The notes under the pieces: generated by a model
Databases searched by the model: none
The model's input: the letters and a program-made list of their open reading frames with translations, nothing else
Told to the model about the DNA's origin: nothing
Shown here: positions 1 to 13,862 of the stretch, piece after piece
Position numbering within the stretch: the first letter of the stretch is position 1
How the letters are laid out: each line of letters starts with the position of its first letter
Program-made: the position numbers and the translations under genes
NCBI RefSeq assembly: GCF_001432305.1
Contig: NZ_KQ483358.1
Location: forward strand, 3,537,134-3,601,133
Origin: Curvibacter sp. PAE-UM
GTDB lineage: Bacteria > Pseudomonadota > Gammaproteobacteria > Burkholderiales > Burkholderiaceae_C
DNA length: 64,000 nucleotides
Reading direction: 5' to 3'

Positions 1-91
1 GCATCAGGCTGGCCACGGCGGCCACGGCACCGGCGGTGCCTGCACCTGCAAAAAGGGTGCGTCGTGACAATTTCCCTTGGGATTGACTCAT
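1..91 (-). CDS. Formate dehydrogenase region TAT-signal protein (5' part only)
   Basis: The window edge cuts this gene after 30 codons. The visible N-terminus begins MSQSQGKLSRRTLFAGAGTA and has a twin-arginine SRRTLF motif followed by an Ala/Gly-rich hydrophobic stretch. This closely resembles the very small TAT-signal proteins that sit just before the large subunit of respiratory formate dehydrogenases. The start is supported by an AGGAG ribosome binding site about 8 nt upstream (minus strand). The nearby chaperone, ferredoxin and DUF3305/3306 genes fit the same pathway. That a respiratory formate dehydrogenase continues to the left of the window is an inference. Confidence 0.75.
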   Translation of the reverse strand, partial: MSQSQGKLSRRTLFAGAGTAGAVAAVASLM

Positions 92-521
92 GCTGGGTCT
101 CCTGAAAGGTTCCACTTAGGAACAGAACTACATAACGAAACTTGCTGGAATTTAGCAATGCCACGGTGTTTCAGCAAGCGAGGTCTCCCTTGGTGCGAGC
201 CGACCCTCGCCACGATGCGCACAGGGGAGATTTTTTAATTCGCACATCACTGATATAGCCATGCACTCCTGGCACTCGAACGAATTTGCAGCACACCGCA
301 TGAATCAAGGGCTTGTGTACTTGCTGCACCGCAATAATCATCTGGTGGCACGACAAGCTGACGACAGGTTTGCGACAACTTGTCGCAAGTCAAATCACAC
401 AGATAAGAATGGTTCGCAAGCCTGCCACACGGCGCGCTGTTGTTAGCGCATCAAAACCTTGATACCCGACAAAATCACTCAGCTGTGATCGATAGAATTG
501 CGCTACTTTCATCGCCTGACC
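92..521. other. Divergent intergenic region between TAT protein and two-component genes
   Basis: About 430 bp, richer in A+T than its surroundings, with no convincing gene; the short ORFs here have no recognisable product. It must hold the promoter for the leftward formate dehydrogenase genes and the one for the rightward response regulator. It contains the perfect palindrome at 370-388 and a -10-like TAGAAT at 493-498. I looked for a sigma-54 element (GG-N10-GC) on both strands and did not find one with correct spacing. Confidence 0.6.
370..388. promoter_or_regulatory. Palindromic operator, copy 1
   Basis: TTGCGACAA-C-TTGTCGCAA is a perfect inverted repeat with 9-bp arms around one central base. 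A second copy with the same 8-bp core arms lies at 7932-7950 in front of the DUF3305 operon. This copy is about 115 bp upstream of the probable start of the response-regulator transcript and about 280 bp upstream of the leftward TAT-protein gene. The adjacent Fis-type response regulator is the natural candidate to bind it, but that is inference. Confidence 0.7.
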
Positions 522-1919
522 GTGACCACAACGCCCCCCATTCCCGACGCAAACAAGCTGGCCGACGGCTGGCCCTACTGGTCCATCCTGGTCGTCGACG
601 ACGAGCCGGGCATGCGCAACTTTCTGGTCAAGACGCTGGCGCCGCGCTGCCAGACCGTGATGGAGGCGGGCAGTGCGGAAGAAGGCGCCGAGCTGCTGCG
701 CGGCAACCACGTCGACCTCATCATCCTGGACATCGCCCTGCCCGGCATGAACGGCGTGGCCTGGCTCAAGGAACTGCGCGAGCACGGCTACACCGGCCAG
801 GTGATCCTGATCACGGCCTTCGCCGACCTGGACACCGCCATCGAGGCGCTGCGCGCCGGCGCCTCGGACTTCATCCTCAAGCCCTTTCGCGTGCCGCAGA
901 TCCTCAACGCGGTGCGCCGCTGTTATGAGAGTGCCCGGTTGGCACGCGAGAACTTCGTGCTGCGCCACGCACTGTCGCGCAGCCAGTTCGCCGACAACGG
1001 CCTGGTGGGGCATACGCCGCAGATGACCGAACTCTCCGCCTCCGTACGCCGCATCGCCACGGTCAACAGCACCGTGCTGCTGCAGGGCGAATCGGGCACG
1101 GGCAAGGAGCTGGTGGCACGTGCCCTGCATGCCCTGAGCCCGCGCGCGCAAGGGCCCTTCGTGCCCGTCAACTGCGCCTCGGTCTCGCCCGAGCACATGG
1201 AGAGCGAGCTCTTCGGCCATGCCAAGGGCGCCTTTGCCGGCGCCACGCGCGCACGCGACGGCCTCTTCTATTACGCCCAGGGCGGCACGCTCTTCCTGGA
1301 CGAGGTGGCCGAGCTGCCGCTGCCGCTGCAAGCCACGCTGCTGCGCGCGCTGGAAGACCTGAAGATCCGCCCGGTCGGCAGCCAGCAGCTGGTGACGATG
1401 AACGTGCGCATCATCGCCGCCACCAACCGCTCGCTGCAGCAGGCCGTGGCCGAGGGGCGCTTCCGCAAGGACCTGTACTACCGCCTGCAGGTGGTAGAAC
1501 TGGCGCTCCCCGCCCTGCGCGAACACAAGGACGACATCCCCGACCTGGTACAGCACTTCATCGCCCGGCTCGCCCCCGTGCTGGGCGCCGCGCCGCTGCA
1601 GATCACACCGGCCGAGATGGACTACCTGATGCAGTACGACTGGCCCGGCAATGTGCGCGAGCTGCGCAACCTGATCGAACGCTCGCTGATCCTGGGCACG
1701 CTCAATGTCTCGGCGCTCTACACCATGGGCCAGCGCTCCGCTGCCGCGCCCGCCGACAGCGGCGCCGAGCGCGGCGTGACCGACCTGCACACGCTGGAGC
1801 AGCAGCACATCCGCGCGGTGCTCGATTCGGTGCACGGCGACAAGACGCAGGCCGCGCAGCTGCTGGGCATCTCGCGCCGCACGCTGGAGCGGCGCTGCGC
1901 CGAGTGGGCCCTGTCGTGA
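522..1919 (+). CDS. NtrC-family response regulator (receiver, AAA+, Fis-type HTH)
   Basis: A receiver domain (phospho-acceptor Asp near residue 70 in LIILDIALPG) is followed by a sigma-54-activator-type AAA+ domain with Walker A GESGTGKE (about residue 189) and Walker B FLDEV, then a C-terminal Fis-like helix-turn-helix. The loop that normally reads GAFTGA and touches sigma-54 reads GAFAGA here. I chose GTG 522 because a -10-like TAGAAT (493-498) overlaps the alternative TTG at 498. It overlaps the kinase gene by 4 bp, so the two are translationally coupled. It sits inside the formate dehydrogenase locus and probably controls it. What signal it answers is not visible. Confidence 0.9.
   Translation: MTTTPPIPDANKLADGWPYWSILVVDDEPGMRNFLVKTLAPRCQTVMEAGSAEEGAELLRGNHVDLIILDIALPGMNGVAWLKELREHGYTGQVILITAFADLDTAIEALRAGASDFILKPFRVPQILNAVRRCYESARLARENFVLRHALSRSQFADNGLVGHTPQMTELSASVRRIATVNSTVLLQGESGTGKELVARALHALSPRAQGPFVPVNCASVSPEHMESELFGHAKGAFAGATRARDGLFYYAQGGTLFLDEVAELPLPLQATLLRALEDLKIRPVGSQQLVTMNVRIIAATNRSLQQAVAEGRFRKDLYYRLQVVELALPALREHKDDIPDLVQHFIARLAPVLGAAPLQITPAEMDYLMQYDWPGNVRELRNLIERSLILGTLNVSALYTMGQRSAAAPADSGAERGVTDLHTLEQQHIRAVLDSVHGDKTQAAQLLGISRRTLERRCAEWALS
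1227..1244 (+). other. GAFAGA in place of the sigma-54 contact motif GAFTGA
   Basis: The codons GGC GCC TTT GCC GGC GCC give GAFAGA. The Thr of the GAFTGA loop, important for engaging sigma-54 in studied activators, is Ala here (residue 239 from the GTG start). The ATPase motifs around it look intact. Confidence 0.9.
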
Positions 1920-4024
1920 GATGGCTCGCCCGCTTGCCGGCCGCGCTGGCGCCGCGCTGGCTCACGCACTCCATCCGCAACAAGCTGCTGGCCATGGCGC
2001 TGCTGCCGCTGCTGGTGGTGCTGCCCCTGCTGGTCGGCGCGCTGCTGATCTGGGGCAATGCCGCCTACGACCGGCTGCTGATCACCAAGGTGCGCAGCGA
2101 CCTGGCGGTGGCACGCGGCTACTTCGAGCAGGTGTTGTCCGAGGTGGGCTCCGGCACGCACGCGGTGGCGGCCTCGCACGCGCTCTACCAGCCCTTGCAG
2201 CGGCGCGACCTGCCGGCCGTGCAGGCCCTGTTGGCACGCGAGAGCCGGCGCCTGGGCTTCGACTTCATCAACCTTTACCAGCTTGACGGCCGGCTCATCA
2301 CGGCCGACTGGCTGCCCTCGGCCACCCCGTCCACCGAGATGCGCACACCAGCGCATGGCGCAGGGGCCATCCACGCCCGCGTCAGCACCGACCAGGCCAA
2401 CCTGGCGCGGCTGGAGCCGGCCGAACTGCTGGCGCTGGCCCCGCATCTGGCGCCGCGCATCCACATCCCGCTGATCCCGACACGCAGCGCCATTCCCACC
2501 ACACGCAACGTGGAAGACCGCGCCCTGGTCATGCTGGCCACCACGCCCGTGCGCGGTGCCGACGGCAATATCGTGGCGCTGCTGCGCGGCGGCGTGCTGC
2601 TGAACCAGAACCTGCCCTTCATCGACCACATCAACCGCATCGTCTACCCCGAAGGCTCCCTGCCCTTCGGCAGCCACGGCACGGCGACGCTCTTCATGGA
2701 CGACGTGCGCATCACCACCAATGTGCGCCTGTTCCAGGACGAGCGCGCCATCGGCACGCGCGTTTCGCAAGCCGTGCGCGAGGCCGTGCTCACGCATGGC
2801 GAAACCTGGCTGGACCGCGCCTTCGTCGTCAACGACTGGTACGTCTCGGCCTACGAGCCGCTGCTGGACGCCGCCGGCGAGCGCACGGGCATGCTCTACG
2901 TGGGTTACCTGGAAGAGCCCTTCCGCTACGTGAAGTACGGCATGCTGGCGCTGATCGTCGGCATCTTCCTGGTGGTGATGGTGCTGGCCGCGCTGTTTTC
3001 GCTGCGCTGGGCGCGCAGCATCTTCCGCCCGCTGGAGCAGATGAACCTGACCATGCAGCGCGTGGAGGACGGCGACACCGGCGCACGCGTGGGCCTGGTC
3101 ACCGCGCGCGACGAGATCGGCGCGCTGGCCGGCCACCTGGACGAACTGCTGGACGTGATCGACGAGAAGACCCGCGCCCTGCAGCGCTGGGCCGAGGAGC
3201 TCGATGCCAAGGTGGTCGAGCGCACGCAGGAGCTGGCGCAGAGCAACGCCTCGCTGCAGCAGGCGCAGCAGCAGCTGGTCAAGTCGGAGAAGCTCGCCGC
3301 CATCGGCCAGCTCACCGCCAGCGTGGCGCACGAGATCAACAACCCCATCGCCGTGATCCAGGGCAACCTGGACCTGATGCGCGAGACCCTGGGCGCGCAG
3401 GCCACCCCGGTCAAGGCCGAACTCACCCTGCTGGACCAGCAGGTCGAACGCATGCGCCTGATCGTCACCCAGCTGCTGCAGTACGCACGGCCCACCGAAT
3501 ACGCGGGTTACGTGGAAGCGATGGACGTGAACCAGACGCTGGAGAACTCGCTGGTACTGGTGGCCCACCTGCTGGCGCGCACCCGCATCGACGTCGAGCG
3601 CGACCTGCTGGCCACGGCGCGCGCCGGCGTGAACCGCCAGGAACTGCAGCAGGTGGTGATCAACCTGATGATCAACGCCATCCAGGCCATGCCCGAGGGC
3701 GGACGCCTGCGCCTGCGCACGCGCAACCGGGAGGACGGCAAGACCGGCGTGCTGCTGGAGATCAGCGACAGCGGACCGGGTTTGAGCGAACGCGTCAAGG
3801 AGCGCCTGTTCCGCCCCTTCTTCACCACCAAGAACGACGGCAACGGCCTGGGCCTGTGGATCAGCGTGGGCCTGGTGGAACGCTACGGCGGCAGCATCGA
3901 AGGCCTGAACCGGCGCGAGCTCGGCGAGGCCGCCGATGGTGCGGTCTTCCGCGTCTGGCTGCTGACCGAGCCGCTGGTTCCGCAGGATGGTCCGACGGGC
4001 CCGATGGAAGCGCGGCGGGCCTGA
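1916..4024 (+). CDS. Membrane sensor histidine kinase
   Basis: A first membrane helix (about residues 21-45), a periplasmic sensor region of nearly 300 residues resembling Cache-type ligand domains, and a second helix (about 342-362) are followed by HAMP, a coiled-coil linker, a HisKA domain with the phospho-accepting His in AHEINNP (about residue 472), and an ATPase domain with N box NLMINA and G boxes DSGPG and GNGLGLW. GTG 1916 overlaps the stop of the response regulator (GTGA), so the pair forms one operon. It converges on the TorD-like gene with a 14-bp gap. Partner of the upstream regulator; its ligand is unknown, and formate or a redox carrier is only a guess from context. Confidence 0.92.
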   Translation: MRWLARLPAALAPRWLTHSIRNKLLAMALLPLLVVLPLLVGALLIWGNAAYDRLLITKVRSDLAVARGYFEQVLSEVGSGTHAVAASHALYQPLQRRDLPAVQALLARESRRLGFDFINLYQLDGRLITADWLPSATPSTEMRTPAHGAGAIHARVSTDQANLARLEPAELLALAPHLAPRIHIPLIPTRSAIPTTRNVEDRALVMLATTPVRGADGNIVALLRGGVLLNQNLPFIDHINRIVYPEGSLPFGSHGTATLFMDDVRITTNVRLFQDERAIGTRVSQAVREAVLTHGETWLDRAFVVNDWYVSAYEPLLDAAGERTGMLYVGYLEEPFRYVKYGMLALIVGIFLVVMVLAALFSLRWARSIFRPLEQMNLTMQRVEDGDTGARVGLVTARDEIGALAGHLDELLDVIDEKTRALQRWAEELDAKVVERTQELAQSNASLQQAQQQLVKSEKLAAIGQLTASVAHEINNPIAVIQGNLDLMRETLGAQATPVKAELTLLDQQVERMRLIVTQLLQYARPTEYAGYVEAMDVNQTLENSLVLVAHLLARTRIDVERDLLATARAGVNRQELQQVVINLMINAIQAMPEGGRLRLRTRNREDGKTGVLLEISDSGPGLSERVKERLFRPFFTTKNDGNGLGLWISVGLVERYGGSIEGLNRRELGEAADGAVFRVWLLTEPLVPQDGPTGPMEARRA

Positions 4025-4038
4025 ACGGGAAGCCGGCT

Positions 4039-4677
4039 TTACGCCAGCATGTCGAAGCCCTGCATCTCGACGCTGAGGAAGGCGCGCGTGAAACCGGCCA
4101 GCGCCGCGTAGAAACGTGCCGAGGGGTTGCCCTCGATCGCGTCGCACATGGGGTTGACCCAGGGCTGCAGGTGCGCCGCAAAAAACTCGCGCTGTTTCGT
4201 CAGGTTGGCCACGGCCACGTCGTCGCCGGCGATCAGGTAGCGCATCACCTCGCAGAGGTAGGCGATGTGGTCCTCGGTCTCGGGCATGGTCTCGTCGCGC
4301 GCCAGGCCCAGGGCGGCCAAGTCATCGCGCAGCTTGGCCAGGGGCTTCTCGTTGAGGAAACCGCTGAGGTAGTGCGAGCCGAAGAGGTAGACCTCGGGTT
4401 TGCCGACGCCGCCGAACAGGGCGTTGTATTCCCTTGTGACCGTCTGCAAGTCCAGATCGCGCGCCGCACCCACCAGGGCACGCCAGGGTTCCTCCAGGAA
4501 ACCACCCTCGGCCGGCGCTTCGGTGGCGGCCACCCGCAGTTGCTCCAGCAACTCTGCGCCCGGGGGGGCGTAATACAGCGCGGCCAGCAGGCCATAGACC
4601 TCGGCGCGGGCGGTCTCTTCGTCGAGCGTGCCGCCCTGGGCCAGCAGGGCGTCGTTGGATTCTGGTTGATTGCTCAT
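4039..4677 (-). CDS. TorD/DmsD-family molybdoenzyme chaperone
   Basis: 212 residues, all-alpha, with the family-typical blocks REYNALFGG and PEVYLFGSHYLSGFLNEKPL followed by the PETEDHIAYLCEVMRYL helix. TorD-family proteins hold molybdoenzymes or their TAT signals in an export-ready state and help cofactor insertion. It is the last gene of the DUF3305-DUF3306-ferredoxin operon, 7 bp downstream of the ferredoxin gene. The likely client is the formate dehydrogenase to the left of the window (inference), because FdsA itself is cytoplasmic and lacks a TAT signal. Confidence 0.88.
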   Translation of the reverse strand: MSNQPESNDALLAQGGTLDEETARAEVYGLLAALYYAPPGAELLEQLRVAATEAPAEGGFLEEPWRALVGAARDLDLQTVTREYNALFGGVGKPEVYLFGSHYLSGFLNEKPLAKLRDDLAALGLARDETMPETEDHIAYLCEVMRYLIAGDDVAVANLTKQREFFAAHLQPWVNPMCDAIEGNPSARFYAALAGFTRAFLSVEMQGFDMLA

Positions 4678-4684
4678 GGTCGGC

Positions 4685-6781
4685 TCAAAGGTCGGTGATC
4701 CTGGATTCGTTCGGGTTGCTGTAGATGTCGATCACGCGGCAGTCGCCGCACATCTTCAGCCGCTCCAGCGCTTCGCCCTGGAACATGGAATGGCCGGCCA
4801 GCTTGCCCAGCATGGCCTCGATGCCCTTGAGCGTGCCGAAGGGCTTGCCGCAGCGCACGCAGGCGTAGGGCTGCATCTCGTTGATCACCACGGCTTCCTT
4901 GCGCTGCGGCGTCAGACGCAGCTGCGGAATGAGCGACAGCGCCTTTTCCGGGCAGGTCTTGACGCACAGGCCGCATTGCACACAGTTCTTCTCGATGAAT
5001 TTCAGCTGCGGCGCGTTGGGGTTGTCCTGCAGCGCGCTGGCCGGGCAGGCGTTCACGCAGCTCAGGCACATCGTGCAGCTGTCCTTGTTGATGGCCAGCG
5101 CGCCCAGCGGGGAGCCCTGTGCCGGCAGCGGAATCAGCTCGGGTCTGGGTTCGGCCAGCGTGGCGTGCGTCAGCAGATGGTCCAGCGCCAGTTCCAGCGT
5201 CGCACGCTTGTCGGCCTGCACGGCAAAACCGGCGGGCTTGGCCACACCCTGCGCGGCCGCAAGCTGCAGGTCGGCGTCCAGCGCCGCCAGGTCGCGCGCA
5301 TCCCGCGCATGCAGGATGCGGAAGTGTTCGCCCTTGTAGCCCAGGCCGGTGAGGATGGCCTGCGCCACGTCCATCTGGGCGCGCACGGCCTCCAGGTACT
5401 GGGGCGCTTCCTCGCCCGCCATCAGCACCCAGACATTCGTCGCACCATAGGCCACGGCCGAGAGCCAGACATCCAGGCCCAGGGAGGCGGTGTGCCAGAC
5501 CGGCACGGGGATCACGCGCGCCGGCACGCCCAGCATGTCCGGGTCCACGCGTGCGGCGCGGCCCAGGTCACCGATCATCCGGGTCCCCGCCTGCTGGCTG
5601 TGCAGCAGCAGCGCGGGCTGTTTGCCGCCGGCGCGCAGGTAGGTGGAGAGCAGGGTCTTGAGCTTGACGCCCTGCTCGCCCGCACGCGGGTAGGCAAAGG
5701 TCAGCGCGCCGCTGGGGCAAACCGTGGTGCAGGCGCCGCAACCCACGCAGAGGTTGGGGCTCACCTTGATCTGCTGGTGTTCGTAGTCCGAACTGATGGC
5801 CGAGGCCGAGCAGACCTCGATGCAGGCGTTGCAGCCCACCTTCTCGTTGCGGCTGTGCGCGCAGAGCTTCTGCTTGTAGACAAAAAACTTGGGCTTCTCG
5901 AATTCGCCGACCAGACCGCGCAATTCGATGAGGGTGCGCTGGTTCTGGCCGTCCCACTGGAAATAACCCTGGGGCTTGGCGTGCTGGGTGAAGGCCGGCG
6001 TACTGCGCAGGTCCAGCACCAGGTCGTAGGTTTCGCTGTCGGCCTGCGGCTCGCGGGTGAAGTCGATGGCCCCGGCCACGCCGCAGGCCTTGACGCAGGC
6101 CCGGTGTGATTTGCACAGAGCGCTATCAATTTGATAGTCGAAGCCGATCGCGCCTTCCGGGCAGGCGTCGATGCAGGCATTGCAGCGTGTGCACAGGTCC
6201 AGGTCGATGGGGTTGTTGCGCTGCCACTTGAGTTCGAAGGCGCCCAGCCAGCCGGTGAGCGCCTCGATCCTGCCGGCCAGCACGGGATAACGGCGCTCCT
6301 GCAAACCGCCATCCGTCCCGGGGCCGGTGCTGAAGATGCTGACGTCCAGGGTGTCGGCCAGCAGCTCGGCGGCGCGCTCGGCGGCGTCCAGCGCGCCGAT
6401 GATGAGCAGGCGCCCGGCGCTCTTGTAGGTGACGGTGGGCACGGGCTCGGGGTCGGGCAGGCGCGCGGCGGCCAGCAACGCGGCCATCTTCGGGCCGGCC
6501 TTGGCCGCGTCCTTGCTCCAGCCCCCGGTCTCGCGGATGTTGACGAAACGGATCGGCACCGACTTGGCGCCCTCGGTCTGCTCGGAGATCTCGCCGAAGA
6601 GGCGGGCTTCCTGCGTGCAGGCCACCACCACGTCCTCGCCCTGTCCCAGCGCCTGCTGGAAGGCGCCGGCCTCGCGCCGGCACAGGGTGCTGTGCAGCGT
6701 CAGGTTTTCATTGAGGACCGCGCCCAGACCCTTGGGGTCCAATGGCATGGTCTTGTTGCAGTCGCAAATCAGGGTCGACAT
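4685..6781 (-). CDS. Multi-cluster 4Fe-4S ferredoxin-type protein of formate dehydrogenase locus
   Basis: 698 residues with many Cys motifs: CTRCNACIDACP, CKSHRACVKACG, CNACIEVC, CVGCGACTTVCP, CTMCLSCVNACP and CVQCGLCVKTCP, plus a C-terminal pair CVRC/CGDC that may form a further metal site. The N-terminus carries CDCNKTMPLD. No signal peptide, so it is cytoplasmic. Proteins of this type accompany respiratory formate dehydrogenases and are thought to help assembly or electron transfer. The start codon lies 74 bp inside the end of the DUF3306 gene. A short palindrome, CTATCAA-T-TTGATAG (6123-6137), lies within the coding sequence. Confidence 0.88.
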   Translation of the reverse strand: MSTLICDCNKTMPLDPKGLGAVLNENLTLHSTLCRREAGAFQQALGQGEDVVVACTQEARLFGEISEQTEGAKSVPIRFVNIRETGGWSKDAAKAGPKMAALLAAARLPDPEPVPTVTYKSAGRLLIIGALDAAERAAELLADTLDVSIFSTGPGTDGGLQERRYPVLAGRIEALTGWLGAFELKWQRNNPIDLDLCTRCNACIDACPEGAIGFDYQIDSALCKSHRACVKACGVAGAIDFTREPQADSETYDLVLDLRSTPAFTQHAKPQGYFQWDGQNQRTLIELRGLVGEFEKPKFFVYKQKLCAHSRNEKVGCNACIEVCSASAISSDYEHQQIKVSPNLCVGCGACTTVCPSGALTFAYPRAGEQGVKLKTLLSTYLRAGGKQPALLLHSQQAGTRMIGDLGRAARVDPDMLGVPARVIPVPVWHTASLGLDVWLSAVAYGATNVWVLMAGEEAPQYLEAVRAQMDVAQAILTGLGYKGEHFRILHARDARDLAALDADLQLAAAQGVAKPAGFAVQADKRATLELALDHLLTHATLAEPRPELIPLPAQGSPLGALAINKDSCTMCLSCVNACPASALQDNPNAPQLKFIEKNCVQCGLCVKTCPEKALSLIPQLRLTPQRKEAVVINEMQPYACVRCGKPFGTLKGIEAMLGKLAGHSMFQGEALERLKMCGDCRVIDIYSNPNESRITDL

Positions 6782-7331
6782 GGTCTTGATCGTTCAGTTG
6801 GGCCGTGGCGGCAGGAGGCGGCAAACCGGTGTTCGCTGCCACCGTGGGTGGATTATCAGTTTGCGCAGCAGGCGCCGGGCTAGGGGTCAGCCCTGCCCCG
6901 GGCTTCTTGTCTTGCTCTTCCTCGTCATCGAAGAGGTTCAGGAATTTCGCACTGGCCATCTGGCGCAGCATCGATTCCGGCAGCGGGTCGGGGATGGAGT
7001 AGTCGTCGATGTAGACGTCCATGCGATCCATCACATTGAAGTGCGGATCGGTGAAGAGCTGCTTCATGGCCGCGTTCCTGACCTCGGGGTCCACGTCGGC
7101 GGCGACGAAACGCCTGAAGTCGGACTGCGGCGTCAAGGCCTGCGCGTCCTGCAGCGTGGGCGGTGGCGGCTCGACCACGGGCGCGGCCTGCGGTGCAGCG
7201 GCCACGGGCTCACTGCGCGCGGACACTGGAGGCACCGGCGTCGCGACGGGCACAACCGGCTCTGCGATGGGCTTGCCCTCGCGCACCGCCTGCTTGCGCT
7301 GCGCCCAGCGGCCCAGGAAGCCGTCAGCCAT
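6708..7331 (-). CDS. DUF3306 domain protein
   Basis: 207 residues: a conserved start MADGFLGRWAQRKQAVREG, a Pro/Ala/Val-rich linker, a conserved core (QSDFRRFVAADVDPEVRNAA through MDVYIDDYSIPDPLPESM) and an acidic stretch before a low-complexity tail. It recurs next to DUF3305 in formate dehydrogenase loci; its biochemical role is not established. It overlaps DUF3305 by 8 bp and the ferredoxin gene by 74 bp. The tail encoded in the overlap is low complexity and probably not essential to the fold. Confidence 0.85.
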   Translation of the reverse strand: MADGFLGRWAQRKQAVREGKPIAEPVVPVATPVPPVSARSEPVAAAPQAAPVVEPPPPTLQDAQALTPQSDFRRFVAADVDPEVRNAAMKQLFTDPHFNVMDRMDVYIDDYSIPDPLPESMLRQMASAKFLNLFDDEEEQDKKPGAGLTPSPAPAAQTDNPPTVAANTGLPPPAATAQLNDQDHVDPDLRLQQDHAIGPQGSGRGPQ

Positions 7332-7884
7332 GCTCGCCCCCGCCGAATTTCTTCTCCGTGCTCACCGAGGCCGGGTTGCCGAAGCGGTCGGTCAGCGGCT
7401 TGAAGCTGTCAGGCCGCTTGCGCTTCTTGGGTTCGATCTTGTAGTGCTCGTCGGCAAAGGCCTGGAACCAGGCCACCACCTCGGGCGGCGCCGGCACCTG
7501 CTCCACCGTCTCCTGCGCGTCGAGCCAGCGGCCGGCATCGTGGTAACTCACCGACACGGCGGCCGGGCGGGGAATCGGTTCGTCGGACACCGTGGCTTCC
7601 TCGTCCATGCGCCAGAGCACGAACCAGCAGGGTGCCGGCGTGGTGGCGTTGAGGTAATAGCCCTCCGCATCGTCGCGGAAGAGTTCCACCGTGAAGTTCG
7701 GGTGCAACCAGTGCTCGCCGCTCTCATCCTGGCGCAGCCGGCGCGGTTCGGTGCCGAAGGCGGGCTCGTTCATCACCACGTCGGCCAGCTCCCAACGCCA
7801 GGTCTGCCAGCGGCTCATGGCGCCGGCTATGCGCACCTTGCGCATGATGACGGCGACTTGAAGAGTAGGCTGTTTCGTGTTCAT
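7324..7884 (-). CDS. DUF3305 domain protein
   Basis: 186 residues beginning MNTKQPTLQVAVIMRKVRI; the block MSRWQTWRWELADV is typical of the family. I chose ATG 7884 because upstream in-frame codons run into the operator at 7932-7950 and the conserved domain starts at this Met. First gene of a four-gene operon (DUF3305, DUF3306, ferredoxin, TorD chaperone). A minus-strand hexamer TACAGT ends 10 nt before the ATG and would give a very short leader. Function unknown, but always near formate dehydrogenases in the cases I know. Confidence 0.85.
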   Translation of the reverse strand: MNTKQPTLQVAVIMRKVRIAGAMSRWQTWRWELADVVMNEPAFGTEPRRLRQDESGEHWLHPNFTVELFRDDAEGYYLNATTPAPCWFVLWRMDEEATVSDEPIPRPAAVSVSYHDAGRWLDAQETVEQVPAPPEVVAWFQAFADEHYKIEPKKRKRPDSFKPLTDRFGNPASVSTEKKFGGGEHG

Positions 7885-7931
7885 GACAGCCGCCACTGTA
7901 GCGGATAGGAAAGACCCTGCATAAGAGTCCG

Positions 7932-7950
7932 TTGCGACAATTTGTCGCAC
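7932..7950. promoter_or_regulatory. Palindromic operator, copy 2
   Basis: TTGCGACAA-T-TTGTCGCAC; the inner 8-bp arms TGCGACAA/TTGTCGCA are perfectly inverted and identical to those of the site at 370-388. The centre is 57 bp upstream of the DUF3305 start codon and about 40 bp upstream of a -10-like hexamer (minus strand), a fitting place for an activator. Confidence 0.7.
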
Positions 7951-7977: not shown

Positions 7978-8007
7978 AAGGGCCTTGCGGCATGCCGCAA
8001 GGCCCTT
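7978..8007 (-). terminator. Intrinsic terminator after fdsA
   Basis: A 30-bp perfect palindrome with 15-bp arms (AAGGGCCTTGCGGCA and its complement), followed on the minus strand by TTTTACTT. It lies 36 bp after the fdsA stop and before the operator of the DUF3305 operon, so the two operons are separate transcription units. Confidence 0.8.
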
Positions 8008-8043: not shown

Positions 8044-10932
8044 TCAGCCCAGCATGGCCTGCGCCGCACCAAAGCCCTGCGTCTTGGCCGGCGTGCCGCC
8101 GCGGCGGATGGCCACCGCGCAGTACTTGAACTCCGGGATCTTGCCGAAAGGATCGAGCGCGGCGTTGGTGATCAGGTTGGCCGCCGCCTCGTAGTAGGCG
8201 AAGGGGATGAAAACGGCGCCGCGGGGCGTGCCGTCGTCACGGCGCAGGTGGATGGCCACCTGGCCGCGGCGCGAGGCCACGGTCACCACGTCGCCGGGCG
8301 ACAGGCCCAGCTCGGTCATGTCGTCACCGCACATGGAGGCGGTGGCGATGGGCTCGATGGCGTCGAGCACGCCCGAACGGCGCGTCATGCTGCCGGTGTG
8401 CCAGTGTTCGAGCTGGCGGCCGGTGATGAGCACGAAGGGGAACTCGGCATCGGGGCGCTCGTTGGCCGGGATGATGTCGGCCGGCACCAGCTTGACCTTG
8501 CCGTCGGCCGTGGGGAAGTCCTCGATGAAGACGGTGGGCTGGCCCGGGTCTTCGGCACTCAGGCAGGGATAGGTCACGCTGGATTCCTTCTCCAGGCGCT
8601 CCCAGGTGATGCCCGAGATGACGGCGTGCATGGCCTGGCGCATCTCTTCGTAGACCGCGGCCACACCGGCGTGCTCACCCGGGTAGTTCCAGTCCTGGCC
8701 CATGCGCTTGGCAATCTGCTGGATGATCCAGAGATCCGGCTTGGCTTCGCCCGGCGGTGTGACGGCCTGCTTGCCCATCTGCACCATGCGGTCGGTGTTG
8801 CTCACCGTACCGGTCTTCTCGGGCCAGGCGGTGGCGGGCAGGATCACGTCGGCCAGCCAGGCGGTCTCGGTCATGAAGATGTCCTGCACCACCAGGTGCT
8901 TGAGTTCGGCCAGCGCGTGGCGGGCATGGTTCAGGTCCGGGTCGCTCATGGCGGGGTTCTCGCCCTCCACGTACATGCCATGGATCTTGTGCGGATCGCT
9001 GTCGTCGACCAGGGCCTTGTGCATGATCTCCACCACGGTGTAGCCGGGGCGGTTGTCGAGCTTGGTGTTCCAGAACTTCTCGAACCACTGGTGCACTTCC
9101 TTGTTGTCCACGCGCTGGTAGTTCGGGAACATCATGGGGATCAGGCCGGCGTCGCTGGCGCCCTGCACATTGTTCTGGCCGCGCAGCGGGTGCAGGCCGG
9201 AGCCGGGCTTGCCGATCTGGCCGGTCACCGCGCACAGGGCGATCAGGCAACGTGCGTTGTCGGTGCCGTGCACGTGCTGGCTCACGCCCATGCCCCACAG
9301 GATCATGGAGGCCTTGGAGGTGGCGAACTCGCGCGCCACTTCGCGCAGCTTTTGCGCCGGGATGCCGCAGATGGGCTCCATGGCCTCGGGGCTGTAGCCC
9401 TGTACGTTTTTCTTCAGGGCTTCAAAGTTGCTGGCGCGCTTCTTCACGAAGTCCTGGTCCACCAGGCCTTCTTCGATCACCGTGTAGATCATGGCATTGA
9501 GCATGGCCACGTCGGTGTCAGGCTTGAACTGCAGGGTGCGCCAGGCGTGTTTGCCGATGTCGGTGATGCGCGGGTCGGCCAGCACGATCTTGGCACCGGC
9601 CTTGGCGGCGTTTTTCATCCAGGTGGCCGCTACCGGGTGGTTGGCCGTGGGGTTGGAGCCGATCACGAAGATGAGACCGGAATGCTCCACGTCATTGACC
9701 TGGTTGGACACGGCACCCGAGCCCACGCCTTCGAGCAGGGCCGCCACGCTGGAGGCGTGGCACAGGCGGGTGCAATGGTCCACGTTGTTGCTGCCGAAAC
9801 CCGTGCGCACCAGCTTCTGGAACAGGTAGGCCTCTTCGTTGCTGCCCTTGGCCGAGCCGAAACCGGCCAGGGCCTTGAGGCCGTACTTGTCGCGCAGGGC
9901 CTTGAGGCCGCCGCCGGCCAGGTCCAGCGCCTCGTCCCACGTGGCTTCGCGGAACATGGTACCGATGATGGACGGGTCCTCGCTCATCTGGCGGTTCAGC
10001 TCGTCGATGGCCTCCGGATCCTTGGGCACGCCGGCCTTGCGGATCAGGGGCTTGGTCAGGCGCTGCGGGTTGTGCGCGTAGTCGAAACCGAAACGGCCCT
10101 TGACGCACAGGCGGTTGTGGTTGGCCGGGCCGTCGCGCCCGTCCACGCTGATGATCTTGTTGTCCTTGACGTTGTAGGTGATCAGGCAACCGACACCGCA
10201 GAAGGGGCAGACCGAGTCGACCTTCTTGTCGACCTGCTGCGAACCGATGCGTGTCTTGGGCATGAGGGCGCCCGTGGGGCAGGCCTGCACGCACTCACCG
10301 CAGGCGACACAGGTGCTGTCACCCATGGGGTCGTTCAGGTCGAACACGATCTCGCTACTGGACCCGCGCATGGCGTAGCCGATCACGTCGTTCACCTGCT
10401 CTTCACGGCAGGCGCGCACGCAGCGGTTGCACTGGATGCAGGCATCGAGGTTCACGGCCATGGCCGGATGCGAGATGTCGGCCTTGGGCTGCTCGCGGCG
10501 CAGGGCCTTGAGTGCGGGGCGCACGGTCACACCCACCTGGTCGGCCCACTGCGACAGCTCGCCATGTTGCAGCGACTCGTCCTGCTCGTCCCACTTGTAG
10601 CCGGTATCGGGCATGTCGGACAGCAGCATTTCCAGCACCATCTTCTGGCTCTTGACGGCGCGTTCGCTCTTGCTCTGCACTTCCATGCCGGCGGTGGCGC
10701 TGCGGCAGCAGCTGGGGGCCAGGGTGCGTTCGCCCTTGACCTCGACCACACAGGCGCGGCAGTTGCCGTCGGCGCGCATGCCTTCCTTGTAGCAAAGGTG
10801 CGGGATCTCCATGCCCATGCGCTTGGCAACGGTCAGGATGGTTTCACCGGCGTAGGCCTGGGCCTTCTTGCCGTCGAGCGTGAACTCGACGACCTGGGGG
10901 GTGACTTCGTTGAGCTTGGCGGGTGCGTTCAT
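8044..10932 (-). CDS. fdsA: NAD-dependent formate dehydrogenase, molybdopterin alpha subunit
   Basis: 962 residues. An N-terminal ferredoxin-like part (Cys in HLCYKEGMRADGNCRACVVE and SCCR) is followed by 4Fe-4S motifs CIQCNRCVRAC and CVACGECVQACP, then CPFCGVGC opening the bis-MGD domain. HCTRLCHASSV holds the active-site Cys that ligates the metal; there is no selenocysteine codon. It oxidises formate to CO2 in the cytoplasm and passes electrons to the FdsGB diaphorase. ATG 10932 overlaps the fdsGB stop (ATGA). Length fits known FdsA. The usual fdsC/fdhD and fdsD genes do not follow; a terminator does. Confidence 0.96.
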   Translation of the reverse strand: MNAPAKLNEVTPQVVEFTLDGKKAQAYAGETILTVAKRMGMEIPHLCYKEGMRADGNCRACVVEVKGERTLAPSCCRSATAGMEVQSKSERAVKSQKMVLEMLLSDMPDTGYKWDEQDESLQHGELSQWADQVGVTVRPALKALRREQPKADISHPAMAVNLDACIQCNRCVRACREEQVNDVIGYAMRGSSSEIVFDLNDPMGDSTCVACGECVQACPTGALMPKTRIGSQQVDKKVDSVCPFCGVGCLITYNVKDNKIISVDGRDGPANHNRLCVKGRFGFDYAHNPQRLTKPLIRKAGVPKDPEAIDELNRQMSEDPSIIGTMFREATWDEALDLAGGGLKALRDKYGLKALAGFGSAKGSNEEAYLFQKLVRTGFGSNNVDHCTRLCHASSVAALLEGVGSGAVSNQVNDVEHSGLIFVIGSNPTANHPVAATWMKNAAKAGAKIVLADPRITDIGKHAWRTLQFKPDTDVAMLNAMIYTVIEEGLVDQDFVKKRASNFEALKKNVQGYSPEAMEPICGIPAQKLREVAREFATSKASMILWGMGVSQHVHGTDNARCLIALCAVTGQIGKPGSGLHPLRGQNNVQGASDAGLIPMMFPNYQRVDNKEVHQWFEKFWNTKLDNRPGYTVVEIMHKALVDDSDPHKIHGMYVEGENPAMSDPDLNHARHALAELKHLVVQDIFMTETAWLADVILPATAWPEKTGTVSNTDRMVQMGKQAVTPPGEAKPDLWIIQQIAKRMGQDWNYPGEHAGVAAVYEEMRQAMHAVISGITWERLEKESSVTYPCLSAEDPGQPTVFIEDFPTADGKVKLVPADIIPANERPDAEFPFVLITGRQLEHWHTGSMTRRSGVLDAIEPIATASMCGDDMTELGLSPGDVVTVASRRGQVAIHLRRDDGTPRGAVFIPFAYYEAAANLITNAALDPFGKIPEFKYCAVAIRRGGTPAKTQGFGAAQAMLG

Positions 10933-12746
10933 GCTTGGGCTCCCAGTTCTTGCGGGAAGTATTTCTGGACACAGCGGATGGGGTTGGGCGCGGCCTGGCC
11001 CAGGCCGCAGATGGAGGCGTCGGCCATGACCTGGCACAGGTCTTCCAGCGTCTCGTTGTCCCACTGCTTGGCTTCCATCAGCTTGACGGCCTTGGCCGTG
11101 CCCACGCGGCAGGGCGTGCACTGGCCGCAGCTCTCGTCGGCGAAGAAACGCATCATGTTCACGGCGGCTTCGCGCGCCGTGTCCTTCTGGCTCAGCACGA
11201 TGACCGCCGCAGAACCGATGAAACAGCCGTAGGGCTGCAGGGTGTCGAAGTCCAGCGGGATGTCGCCCATGCTGGCCGGCAGGATGCCGCCTGAGGCGCC
11301 ACCCGGCAGGTAGGCATACAGCTCATGGCCATCGAGCATGCCGCCGCAATACTGGTCGACCAGTTCGCGGATGGTGATGCCGGCCGGCGCCAGCTTGACG
11401 CCCGGGTGCTTGACCCGGCCGCTGACGCTGAAGGAGCGTAGGCCCTTGCGGCCGTTGGCGCCGAAGCTGGAGAACCAGCTCGGGCCCTTCTGCACGATGT
11501 CGCGCACCCAGTAGAGCGTCTCGAAGTTGTGCTCCAGCGTGGGCCGGCCGAACAGGCCGACCTGGGCGATGTAGGGCGGGCGCATGCGGGGCTCGCCACG
11601 CTTGCCCTCGATGCTCTCGATCATGGCGGACTCTTCGCCGCAGATGTAGGCGCCGGCACCGCGGCGCAGCTCGATCAGCGGCAGCGGGCAGGGCGGGTTG
11701 GCCTGCAGGGCGGCCAGCTCGGCCTCCAGCAGGGCGCGCGCGCCGTGGTACTCGTCACGCAGGTAGATGTAGCAGGCGCCCACGCCCACGGCGTAGGCGG
11801 CGACCAGTAGGCCTTCGAGGAAACGGTGCGGGTCGCGCTCCAGGTAGGTGCGGTCCTTGAAGGTGCCGGGTTCGCCTTCGTCGATGTTCACGGCCATCAG
11901 CTTGGGCGCAGGCTGGTCACGCACGATGCGCCATTTGCGCCCGGCCGGGAAACCGGCGCCGCCCAGGCCGCGCAGGCCCGAGTCTTCCATGGCCTTGATG
12001 ACGGCTTCCACGTCCTGCCGGCCAGCGAGCAGGTCGGCCGCCAACTGGTAGCCGCCCTTGGCCTTGTAGGCCTCAAAACCCACGAAGTCGGGCGAGACCT
12101 GCTGCTGGCTGGGTGCGGGGGAGATGGACTTGAGGGCCAGCGCTGCCGGCTCGAAAGCCGCCTTGCCGCTGGACTTGGGGTGCGTGCTGGCACCGGCCTT
12201 CACGGCCTTGGCCACGCTCTCGGGCGTGGCGCGCAGCACCGGGTTCTGGTGCACCACGGCCACCGGGGCCTGCTCGCAGCGGCCCACGCAAGGCGCGTGG
12301 AGTACGCGCACATCACCGCCCAGGGTGGTCTGCAGCTTGCTCATCAGGCTCTGGGCACCATGCATCTCGCAGCTCAGGCCGTCGCAGACGCGCACGGTCA
12401 GGCCGGGGGCTTTTTCGTCGCCCCTCACCACCTCGAAGTGGTGATAGAAGGTGGCCACTTCATAGACCTCGGCCATGGGGATGTTCATTTCCTTGGCCAG
12501 CGCCACCAGGTGGCGGTCGTGCAGGCAGCGGTAGGCGTCGTTGAGCTTGTGCAGGTGCTCGATCAGCAGGTCACGGCGGTGGCCGTTGGCCGGCCTGGCG
12601 CCGATCAGGGTGATGACTTCGGCCAGCGACTTGTCGTCGGCCTGGCGGCCCTTGAGCTTGCTCTTGCGGCGGATGCGTTCGCGCAGGTCGTCGACGGTGG
12701 CGACGGCCACGGCCTGGACTTCGCCTTTGCGGCCTGGATGGTTCAT
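10929..12746 (-). CDS. fdsB: Formate dehydrogenase diaphorase, FdsG-FdsB fusion
   Basis: 605 residues combining two subunits normally encoded separately. Residues about 1-165 match FdsG/NuoE (thioredoxin-like fold; Cys in CDGLSC and CVGRC for a 2Fe-2S cluster). After a Ser/Pro/Gln-rich linker, the rest matches FdsB/NuoF: GLRGLGGAGFPAGRKW and EGEPGTFKDR (FMN/NADH sites), GAGAYICGEE, and SCGQCTPC with SICGLG for a 4Fe-4S cluster. It transfers electrons from FdsA to NAD+. First gene of the fds operon, coupled to fdsA by an ATGA overlap. There is no sign of a broken reading frame, so the fusion looks genuine. Confidence 0.93.
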   Translation of the reverse strand: MNHPGRKGEVQAVAVATVDDLRERIRRKSKLKGRQADDKSLAEVITLIGARPANGHRRDLLIEHLHKLNDAYRCLHDRHLVALAKEMNIPMAEVYEVATFYHHFEVVRGDEKAPGLTVRVCDGLSCEMHGAQSLMSKLQTTLGGDVRVLHAPCVGRCEQAPVAVVHQNPVLRATPESVAKAVKAGASTHPKSSGKAAFEPAALALKSISPAPSQQQVSPDFVGFEAYKAKGGYQLAADLLAGRQDVEAVIKAMEDSGLRGLGGAGFPAGRKWRIVRDQPAPKLMAVNIDEGEPGTFKDRTYLERDPHRFLEGLLVAAYAVGVGACYIYLRDEYHGARALLEAELAALQANPPCPLPLIELRRGAGAYICGEESAMIESIEGKRGEPRMRPPYIAQVGLFGRPTLEHNFETLYWVRDIVQKGPSWFSSFGANGRKGLRSFSVSGRVKHPGVKLAPAGITIRELVDQYCGGMLDGHELYAYLPGGASGGILPASMGDIPLDFDTLQPYGCFIGSAAVIVLSQKDTAREAAVNMMRFFADESCGQCTPCRVGTAKAVKLMEAKQWDNETLEDLCQVMADASICGLGQAAPNPIRCVQKYFPQELGAQA

Positions 12747-12814
12747 GGGGTTGTCCCTCGGTTCATAACTGTGGGCGCAGTGTCCGCCCGGCCCCTGCCG
12801 CGGTCAAATTGCAT

Positions 12815-12865
12815 GGAGACATGTTGTCATTCAAAATATAAATGATGCAGCGCAGCAAATTGCAT
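12815..12865 (-). promoter_or_regulatory. Candidate LysR-type site in the fds promoter region
   Basis: The 162-bp gap between the LysR gene and fdsGB is locally A+T-rich and carries the 10-mer CAAATTGCAT twice as a direct repeat (12815-12824 and 12856-12865; 41 bp apart, about four helical turns). The distal copy is part of an imperfect inverted repeat ATGCA...TGCAT. This is a plausible binding region for the adjacent LysR regulator. No good -35/-10 pair was obvious. Confidence 0.45.
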
Positions 12866-12908
12866 ATGCGGTGATCAGGGCCGCCTCAAAGCGACCGCCC
12901 GAACTGTT

Positions 12909-13862
12909 TCAGGCGTGCAAGAGGCCGCTGTGCGCGGCCGCATGGCGCAACCAGGCCGCATCCTGCGCCAGGGTCAGGGCGGCTTCCAGCGGGCGCGAAT
13001 GCCGCTCCGCCGTCTGGAACATGAAGCCGATGGAAGTGCGCACTTCGGGGCTGCTCAGAGGCTGCGCCTCCAGTTCGCGGTAGGCGCGCACCGCCCCCAC
13101 CAGCGCGCCGGGCATGACGGCGCAGACCGAGCCGCCCACGGCACTGAGCGCCAGGGTCAGCAGGGAATTGGTTTCCAGCACCGGCTGGACCCTGACGCCG
13201 GCCTCGGCGAAAGCGCCGTCCACGATGTGGCGGTTGTACATCTCGGAGGTCATCAGGCACAGGGGCAGCGCGGCCGCCTCCTGCCAGGGCATGGGTGAAC
13301 CAAAACGCATGCCCTGTGCGTTCGGCTCCGGTGGCAACGCGGCCTTGCGCACCAGGAAATAGTGCTCGGTGTACTGCAGCAGGGTCTGCAGCGCTCCGGC
13401 ACCGGGGCGCACGCGCTCGATGAAACCCAGGCCCAGGTCCAGCGTGAGCTCCTCCAGCCCGGCCTCGATCTCCTGCGAACTCATGGAGCGCACCACCGGC
13501 CGGATGCCCGGGTGGCGCGCCTGCAGCATGGCGGCAAAACGCGCCGCCACCGGCTCGGCCGAAGGCACGACGCCGATGCCCAGACGCCCCTGCGGCTGGC
13601 CGCCCACGCTGCTCAGGTCCTGCTTGAGCAGCGTTTCCTCGCGCAGCATGCGACGCGCGCTTTCCAGCAGGCGCTCCCCCTCGGGCGTGAAACCGACGAA
13701 GGTGCGGCCGCGCTTCACGATGGACGAACCGAATTCTTCTTCCAGCGCGCGCAGGGCGTTGGACAGCGCGGGCTGCGTCACGAAGCAGGACTGGGCCGCG
13801 CGGGCGAAATGCTTGTGCTCGTCGAGAGCGACGAGGTAGCGCATGGAGACGAGGAGGTTCAT
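12909..13862 (-). CDS. fdsR: LysR-family regulator, probable FdsR
   Basis: 317 residues: an N-terminal winged HTH (RYLVALDEHKHFARAAQSCFVTQPALSNALRALEEEFG) and a periplasmic-binding-like effector domain. It is directly upstream of, and in line with, the fdsGB-fdsA operon, as is the LysR gene fdsR in related formate oxidisers, so control of fds by formate is likely (inference from position). The sequence alone does not separate it from other LysR proteins. Confidence 0.75.
   Translation of the reverse strand: MNLLVSMRYLVALDEHKHFARAAQSCFVTQPALSNALRALEEEFGSSIVKRGRTFVGFTPEGERLLESARRMLREETLLKQDLSSVGGQPQGRLGIGVVPSAEPVAARFAAMLQARHPGIRPVVRSMSSQEIEAGLEELTLDLGLGFIERVRPGAGALQTLLQYTEHYFLVRKAALPPEPNAQGMRFGSPMPWQEAAALPLCLMTSEMYNRHIVDGAFAEAGVRVQPVLETNSLLTLALSAVGGSVCAVMPGALVGAVRAYRELEAQPLSSPEVRTSIGFMFQTAERHSRPLEAALTLAQDAAWLRHAAAHSGLLHA

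Follow-up and report, generated by a model that had tools for sequence, protein, structure and literature searches.

The window (the whole 64-kb stretch of DNA that was analysed) opens on the 5' end of a gene for a small TAT-type protein that heads a formate dehydrogenase (fdh) operon. The structural genes of that operon follow just left of the window: by NCBIfam they encode an FDH alpha-like protein, which scores below the curated cut-off, and FDH3 beta, which scores above it. Back to back with this operon stands a two-component pair, an NtrC-type response regulator (RR) and its partner histidine kinase, and next comes a leftward accessory operon (7884 to 4039) with genes for DUF3305, DUF3306, ferredoxin and TorD-type proteins. 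Two palindromes, here called operators A and B, are the subject of what follows: operator A lies between the leftward TAT-type gene and the rightward RR-kinase pair, and operator B lies upstream of the accessory operon.

1..91, minus strand: 5' end of the small TAT-type protein gene, head of the fdh operon; runs on beyond the window (ORF reading)
349..365, no strand: degenerate second dyad, a weak candidate, 22 bp from operator A, with 6 mismatches and the left half CGACAA retained
370..388, no strand: operator A, 19 bp palindrome (17-mer at 371-387) in the divergent TAT/fdh - RR promoter region; exact match
522..1919, plus strand: NtrC-type response regulator, RR (Pfam, loop, HTH, co-occurrence)
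1904..4024, plus strand: partner histidine kinase with single Cache (sCache_3) sensor, HAMP, HisKA and HATPase domains (Pfam)
4039..4677, minus strand: TorD/NarJ-type chaperone (Pfam PF02613)
4685..6781, minus strand: polyferredoxin-like 4Fe-4S protein (Pfam)
6708..7331, minus strand: DUF3306 protein (Pfam PF11748)
7324..7884, minus strand: DUF3305 protein, first gene of the accessory operon (Pfam PF11749, E 5.5e-52)
7895..7900, minus strand: putative -10 element (TACAGT) of the DUF3305 operon; operator B stands 32 nt upstream of it
7933..7949, no strand: operator B, 17 bp palindrome in front of the accessory operon; exact match

The start of RR is taken to be the GTG at 522 (a TTG at 498 is open too). 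Beside the accessory operon, at 8044-13862, are NAD-linked FDH-like genes (a NuoE/F-like fusion and a molybdopterin subunit) and a LysR gene; ahead of these soluble NAD-linked FDH-like genes the window scan, at a tolerance of 3 mismatches, turns up no operator. A perfect 30-base inverted repeat at 7978-8007, in the gap that separates operator B from the end of the soluble FDH alpha-like gene, is possibly a terminator, though it is missing from the terminator-scan list. Neither that scan nor a scan for the sigma-70 promoter consensus finds anything at either operator.

Both operators contain an exact copy of TGCGACAA-N-TTGTCGCA, an 8-1-8 inverted repeat, at 371-387 and at 7933-7949. Bases 370 and 388 pair as well, extending operator A to 19 bp; their counterparts at operator B, 7932 and 7950, are T and C and do not pair, so that the palindrome common to both sites is 17 bp. 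An earlier, sequence-only reading of this DNA had described a perfect inverted repeat in both promoters and nowhere else in the 64 kb. Both statements stand, with the proviso that the repeat is 19 bp long only at the first site: no third match turns up in the window even at 3 mismatches. At that tolerance 4 of 100 shuffled windows also yield two or more matches, and the evidential weight accordingly falls on the exactness of the two copies. The same is true of the whole genome (3,632,663 bases), whose search the earlier reading had proposed as a check: of the 9 sites found at a tolerance of 3 mismatches, 2 are the exact ones at these two loci, none has 1-2 mismatches, and 7 have 3. These last are background, since the pattern read backward, as a control, yields 39 sites at the same tolerance. 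Nor does the genome contain a third exact copy of the 13-base core CGACAANTTGTCG.

The earlier reading had also proposed looking for the 17-mer at orthologous loci, and there an exact or near match to it is the rule. Two sets of loci, partly overlapping in their contigs, were compiled. The named set comprises 80 loci with RR orthologs (from Hylemonella, Curvibacter, Rhodoferax, Hydrogenophaga, Azohydromonas and their kin), or 77 after removal of three (L019, L082, L084) with an unreadable upstream region or start. In 69 of the 77 the 300 bp ahead of the RR start contain a site with up to 3 mismatches, an exact one in 29 cases, as against 2 of 3850 shuffled RR upstream regions. Eight of the 77 have no site within 300 bp (L040, L055, L061, L069, L071, L074, L079, L083); in three of these (L055, L074, L083) one with 1-3 mismatches is found ~1.1 kb upstream of RR. 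A similar gap of ~1.1 kb separates operator and RR in G036/G160, and in another genome (L140:7895-9075, G129) two ORFs that by eye are of the Hsp20 type stand between them.

The second set was drawn from 399 genomes of the family. These contain 17 exact copies of the site in 16 genomes, as against 2 genomes with the backward-read pattern. Of the 17 copies, 12 precede RR by no more than 300 bp, one precedes it by 1.2 kb with other ORFs intervening, and 4 precede DUF3305 by no more than 300 bp. RR, scored as present at E <= 1e-150 so that weaker orthologs count as absent, is found in 73 of the 399 genomes, DUF3305 in 186. All 16 site-bearing genomes are among the 73, and the exact site occurs in none of the 127 genomes that have DUF3305 without RR. 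Fisher's test of site against RR gives p 4e-13 overall and 3e-8 within the DUF3305-bearing genomes, kinship being ignored in both. Two members of the window's own genus (G298, G358) lack RR, DUF3305 and the site together. It is because every site-bearing genome carries RR, and no genome with DUF3305 alone has the site, that RR becomes the best candidate for the protein that binds it. The sequence-only reading had predicted one regulator joining both promoters, with RR as the candidate, and this pattern of occurrence, in which the exact site tracks RR (16/73) and not DUF3305 (0/127), speaks for that prediction. A chance origin of the pair of sites, also considered, is ruled out by the scans of the window's own genome and of the 399.

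How regularly is the operator shared by the two halves of the locus? RR loci were recovered for 68 of the 73 genomes, as 69 rows (G075 appears twice), and DUF3305 promoters are readable in 46 rows. Among the 46 family genomes in which both promoters can be read, 43 carry a site (up to 3 mismatches) in at least one of them: 26 on the RR/TAT side only, 9 on both sides and 8 on the DUF3305 side only. The 3 with a site at neither promoter are G172, G014 and G063, the latter two having a site with 4 mismatches. Sharing, as claimed in the earlier reading, is thus the state of affairs in the window and fails as the usual one (9/46). In fifteen of the 69 RR rows a search allowing 3 mismatches finds no site as far as 1.4 kb upstream, and 8 of these have one on the DUF3305 side; since these 8 genomes have no RR-side site, the operator has in effect moved.

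The Fis-type response regulator between the sites, to which the earlier reading had pointed, does carry a Fis-type HTH (HTH_8, PF02954, 1.5e-10). It is no plain receiver/HTH protein: between receiver (PF00072, 6e-29) and HTH it has a sigma54-activator AAA+ domain (PF00158, 1.7e-65), and this combination makes it NtrC-type. Its sigma-54 contact loop reads GAFAGA where GAFTGA is expected. The HTH_8 helix reads SRRTLERR; its recognition helix, RRTLER, compares with RRTLQR in RegA, and RR is alone in having RRTL(E/Q)R among the 7 Fis-type HTH stretches of its own genome. When these 7 are compared with one RegA HTH, RR comes out on top with a score of 66, the next scoring 58. The core (R/K)(R/K)TL(E/Q)R is retained in 68 of 69 ortholog rows, the end of the remaining row being unreadable. 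(A technical note: one of the 7 rows of the HTH comparison, L305, is on the wrong strand and was not used; the helix of that gene is known from L118.)

Relatives with an intact loop, in which we include GAFTGA, DAFTGA and GAYTGA, mostly have a -24/-12 promoter (TGGCAYG-N4-YTGCT type) directed toward TAT-fdh at ~70-180 bp from the operator; it is found in 16 of the 20 intact-loop family rows with a usable operator. A second dyad (up to 4 mismatches), 21-24 bp from the first, is present in 18 of 35 intact-loop rows (a count made without a shuffled control) and is clearest in L022, L025, L027, L067, L070 and L091. Dyads and putative -24/-12 promoter together constitute the usual layout of a sigma-54 enhancer. 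Elsewhere in the family the loop has been anything but constant: it is altered in 47 of the 69 rows, some of which lack the entire loop, and its state changes at least 11 times on a quickly made 69-row tree without bootstrap, a count of changes that cannot separate gain from loss. All 12 window-clade rows have the GAFAGA loop. The sister clade (L014-L016, L079) keeps GAFTGA and has no -24/-12 promoter at the usual place, though L016 has a score-14 match elsewhere.

Loop and promoter do not change in step. The -24/-12 promoter is absent from 22 of 38 altered-loop rows as against 4 of 20 intact-loop rows (Fisher p 0.011), and a good one persists despite an altered loop in the other 16 of the 38. 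A rule that an altered loop entails loss of the -24/-12 promoter was accordingly set aside as weak: six independent tree pairs give, on average, 1.0 for it, 1.7 against and 3.3 equal. At eleven loci (L044, L046, L047, L053, L056-L058, L081, L060, L062, L063) the loop has been replaced, by SAVKGA, SAVQGA, PGSHGS or PGGHGS, and 10 of the 11 (not L053) have a TAT-fdh-side -24/-12 match with a score of 13-15; some clades with shortened loops also keep good -24/-12 promoters. A hidden close paralogue that might serve these promoters in altered-loop genomes was sought in 11 genomes and rejected: the next-best matches to RR reach at most 43% identity over most of their length, or 51% where just part of the AAA+ domain is aligned. 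Loci L005-L100 contain no second RR copy, and among the 73 RR-bearing genomes G075 alone has a second RR gene; its two orthologs (C1:1900283, C1:4331782) both have altered loops and both have an upstream site with 1 mismatch.

The other operator stands in a different setting. Within the window clade, operator B is present with up to 2 mismatches in all 8 readable named loci besides the window, CTATCCGCTACAGT of the DUF3305 core promoter is kept in most members, and no good -35 is found. Relative to that core promoter the operator occupies about -45 to -61 (in L008 and L013 it stands ~14 bp farther upstream). A core promoter closely resembling it (CTATCCTGTACAGT; TTATGC..GGG.TTT.CCTATCCTGTACAGTG) precedes DUF3305 in the sister clade. 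What is directly seen is that there it lacks the operator, and it is this close similarity of promoters with and without an operator that suggests a gain of operator B in the window's clade. Among family genomes, 17 of 32 with an altered loop and 0 of 14 with an intact one have a DUF3305-side site (within 320 bp, up to 3 mismatches; Fisher p 5e-4); 3 of the 17 have 3 mismatches, and the sites are distributed over the window's genus, G057, g106 (Tepidicella-type), g12, g58, g94 and g98. The corresponding numbers for the named set, which overlaps the family set, are 12/23 and 0/17. As a rule, "DUF3305 operator only with altered loop" nevertheless loses its significance once kinship is taken into account: the DUF3305-side site changes 7 times on the tree, and six independent well-supported pairs give 1.3 in agreement, 0 in disagreement and 4.7 equal, too few of them informative.

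The palindrome itself has the look of something familiar. The half sites of RegA-type boxes are paired as GCGNC-GNCGC, with which, by eye, the GCGAC-N5-GTCGC of the operator agrees, and the site looks like a RegA-type box. A RegR box, GNGRCRTTNNGNCGC, quoted in an excerpt of PMC5506826 (according to which that paper's own RegA recognises a different motif), is matched by operator B with one misfit and by operator A with two, also by eye. The remark in the sequence-only reading that it knew of no described operator of this sequence for formate dehydrogenase control is therefore not supported as worded, so far as that excerpt goes: the sequence resembles the known RegA/RegR/PrrA redox box.

A wider set of 399 genomes of the order, 387 of them from other families, contains the exact 17-mer in 32 genomes, the window's own included, and the backward-read pattern in 1. 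One place each was read in 29 of the 31 non-family genomes (G562, G705 and extra sites being left out). By tblastn these 29 loci have no DUF3305 or FDH matches near the 17-mer, and the RR and its kinase find only low-identity receiver or kinase matches. Next to the 17-mer are RegB-like kinases (L236, 6.5e-79; L255, 2.3e-73; both below the curated cut-off of the RegB model) and nitrous oxide reductase, NosZ (L232, L252; above cut-off); nos genes are under RegR control in the portion of PMC4064962 that deals with them. The neighbours in L227-L255 also include genes that by eye are PCu(A)C-like and YcnI-like, with up to 3 sites per genome. In sum, these gene neighbourhoods suggest that the L227-L255 families have a RegA regulon with copper and denitrification genes. 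The RegB model, run on ten other-family genomes, finds a near full-length match in every one, always short of the cut-off, and in 4 of the 10 the 17-mer lies beside the RegB-like kinase. Because the 17-mer stands at regB-like and nosZ genes in other families, it does not by itself mean formate control.

Taken as a whole, the palindrome is probably best explained as the operator of the RR encoded between the two sites. The Cache-domain kinase would phosphorylate RR, and a dimer of RR would bind operators A and B through its Fis-type HTH, co-ordinating the enzyme genes (TAT-fdh) with the accessory genes (DUF3305-DUF3306-ferredoxin-chaperone). Since operator A sits in the divergent TAT-fdh / RR promoter, the arrangement would be partly autoregulatory. 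That the signal is formate is guesswork based on the neighbouring genes. The older state, still seen in relatives, would have been a sigma-54 enhancer, its dyads often paired at a spacing of 22-23 bp and lying some 70-180 bp from the -24/-12 promoter that serves TAT-fdh. Within the clade of the window this old enhancer most likely became a sigma-70-type control site, with RR working at sigma-70-type promoters and activating the DUF3305 promoter from about -53. Here we infer the binding by RR, the direction of regulation, the sigma factor, the signal and the direction of evolution alike. The 16 of 38 altered-loop rows with a good -24/-12 promoter are left unexplained by a sigma-70 reading.

Might another protein own the site? 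Since the exact 17-mer also stands at other genes elsewhere, another Fis-type regulator could bind it, and the obvious one is a RegA homologue acting at a RegA/RoxR/PrrA-type redox box, with redox control overlaid on the fdh locus. The close fit to the RegR box and the RegB-like and NosZ neighbours in other families, where RegA was found in 3 of 3 site-bearing genomes searched, are what such a regulator would lead one to expect. Nearer home, however, RegA is hard to find: the window's own genome has no match at E <= 1e-15, and the RegB model matches only kinase domains there (best 4.6e-21), on which grounds RegA was rejected as the binder in that genome. Of the 16 site-bearing family genomes just one (G258, 2.3e-43) has a strong full-length RegA match, and that of G186 is near full-length but weak (3.6e-17, 33%), while three family genomes that carry both RegA and DUF3305 (G003, G010, G018) have no site. 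We give control by RegA at this locus a slim chance.

The two other alternatives leave RR in possession of the operator and differ about what it does there. RR might still depend on sigma-54 in the window clade, the GAFAGA loop keeping some contact and the -24/-12 promoter being too degenerate for the scan. The own genome does have rpoN, Walker A is conserved as GESG[TS]GKE in 85 of 87 orthologs, and clades with far worse loops retain good -24/-12 promoters, so that changes in loop sequence and in sigma use need not go hand in hand. Against this, the best -24/-12 score near operator A is 11 (shuffle p 0.54 for that region of the window), and nine named window-clade loci with a readable region do no better than their shuffles (p 0.46-0.78); ahead of DUF3305 the best scores in the clade are 11-12, without a shuffle control. 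We regard continued dependence on sigma-54 as unlikely. (An IHF-like match at 303..315, WATCAANNNNTTR, is a weak candidate for an IHF site near operator A; the strict pattern recurs at 67-68 bp from operator A in 4 of the 9 named window-clade loci and in 16 rows table-wide.) About equally doubtful is the idea that RR represses transcription from operator B, and perhaps from its own promoter as well, until the signal lifts the repression. Loci of the Tepidicella type lend themselves to repression, their DUF3305 operator lying ~10 nt upstream of TACAGT, where it would overlap a -35. Operator B of the window clade, at about -45 to -61, is instead in the usual place for an activator, upstream of a promoter that has no good -35 and shares its core with the sister clade. 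Activation of sigma-70-type promoters by RR is the simplest reading of the locus by analogy with known proteins.

A larger scheme can be sketched, tentatively, and with rather more doubt than we attach to the operator assignment: RR would have taken over a RegA-type box in the absence of RegA and repeatedly shed its coupling to sigma-54, by anything from point changes to deletion of the entire loop. Freed in this way to recruit sigma-70-type promoters, it would have allowed the operator to arise before DUF3305 several times, in altered-loop lineages only, with operator and recognition helix held fixed.

Operons of this kind have been described before. The account of dmsD/torD-linked fdhGHI operons with DUF3305/DUF3306 in the relevant part of PMC4464133 covers gene content of the same sort and the chaperones, and contains no operator. 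Titles and abstract openings of the literature on formate dehydrogenase with two-component systems, sigma-54, TAT or DUF3305 yielded no description that we recognised of this operator or regulator, and nothing on the topic was recognised among the matches listed for the half-site strings. Judging from sequence, then, the site is real, conserved and linked to the regulator, and with fair confidence it can be taken as the operator through which RR and its kinase act. The assignment provides a predicted operator, together with two predicted target operons, for a two-component system that we have not found described.

RR shares with the NtrC family of bacterial enhancer-binding proteins its receiver, AAA+ domain and Fis-type HTH; most of its GAFTGA relatives also resemble that family in having a -24/-12 promoter close to the operator, and about half of those relatives have a second dyad. 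RR differs in the GAFAGA loop and the -24/-12 promoter not found in the window, and its relatives extend to complete deletions of the loop. NtrC-type proteins without a normal sigma-54 loop are themselves known: the NtrC proteins of Caulobacter and Rhodobacter capsulatus and VspR of Vibrio lack GAFTGA and are reported, in the section of PMC10274813 concerned with them, to act on sigma-70 promoters. Those are other proteins with other targets; at the present locus the loop varies, by at least 11 changes, while the operator is mostly kept. One orthologous locus thus offers a natural series in which the sigma-54 loop is intact, altered by point changes or deleted while the operator stays largely the same, and in which a change of sigma-factor partner can be tested gene by gene. 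With RegA, PrrA, ActR, RegR and RoxR, finally, RR has in common a very similar operator and a similar recognition helix. RegA itself consists of receiver and HTH without AAA+ and is absent from searches of the window's own genome, and the partner here is a Cache kinase, not RegB. The type of box is already known; what may be new is its apparent owner at this locus and, possibly, the way in which ownership evolved, and a RegA-like box in Comamonadaceae-type genomes need not signal redox control by RegA.
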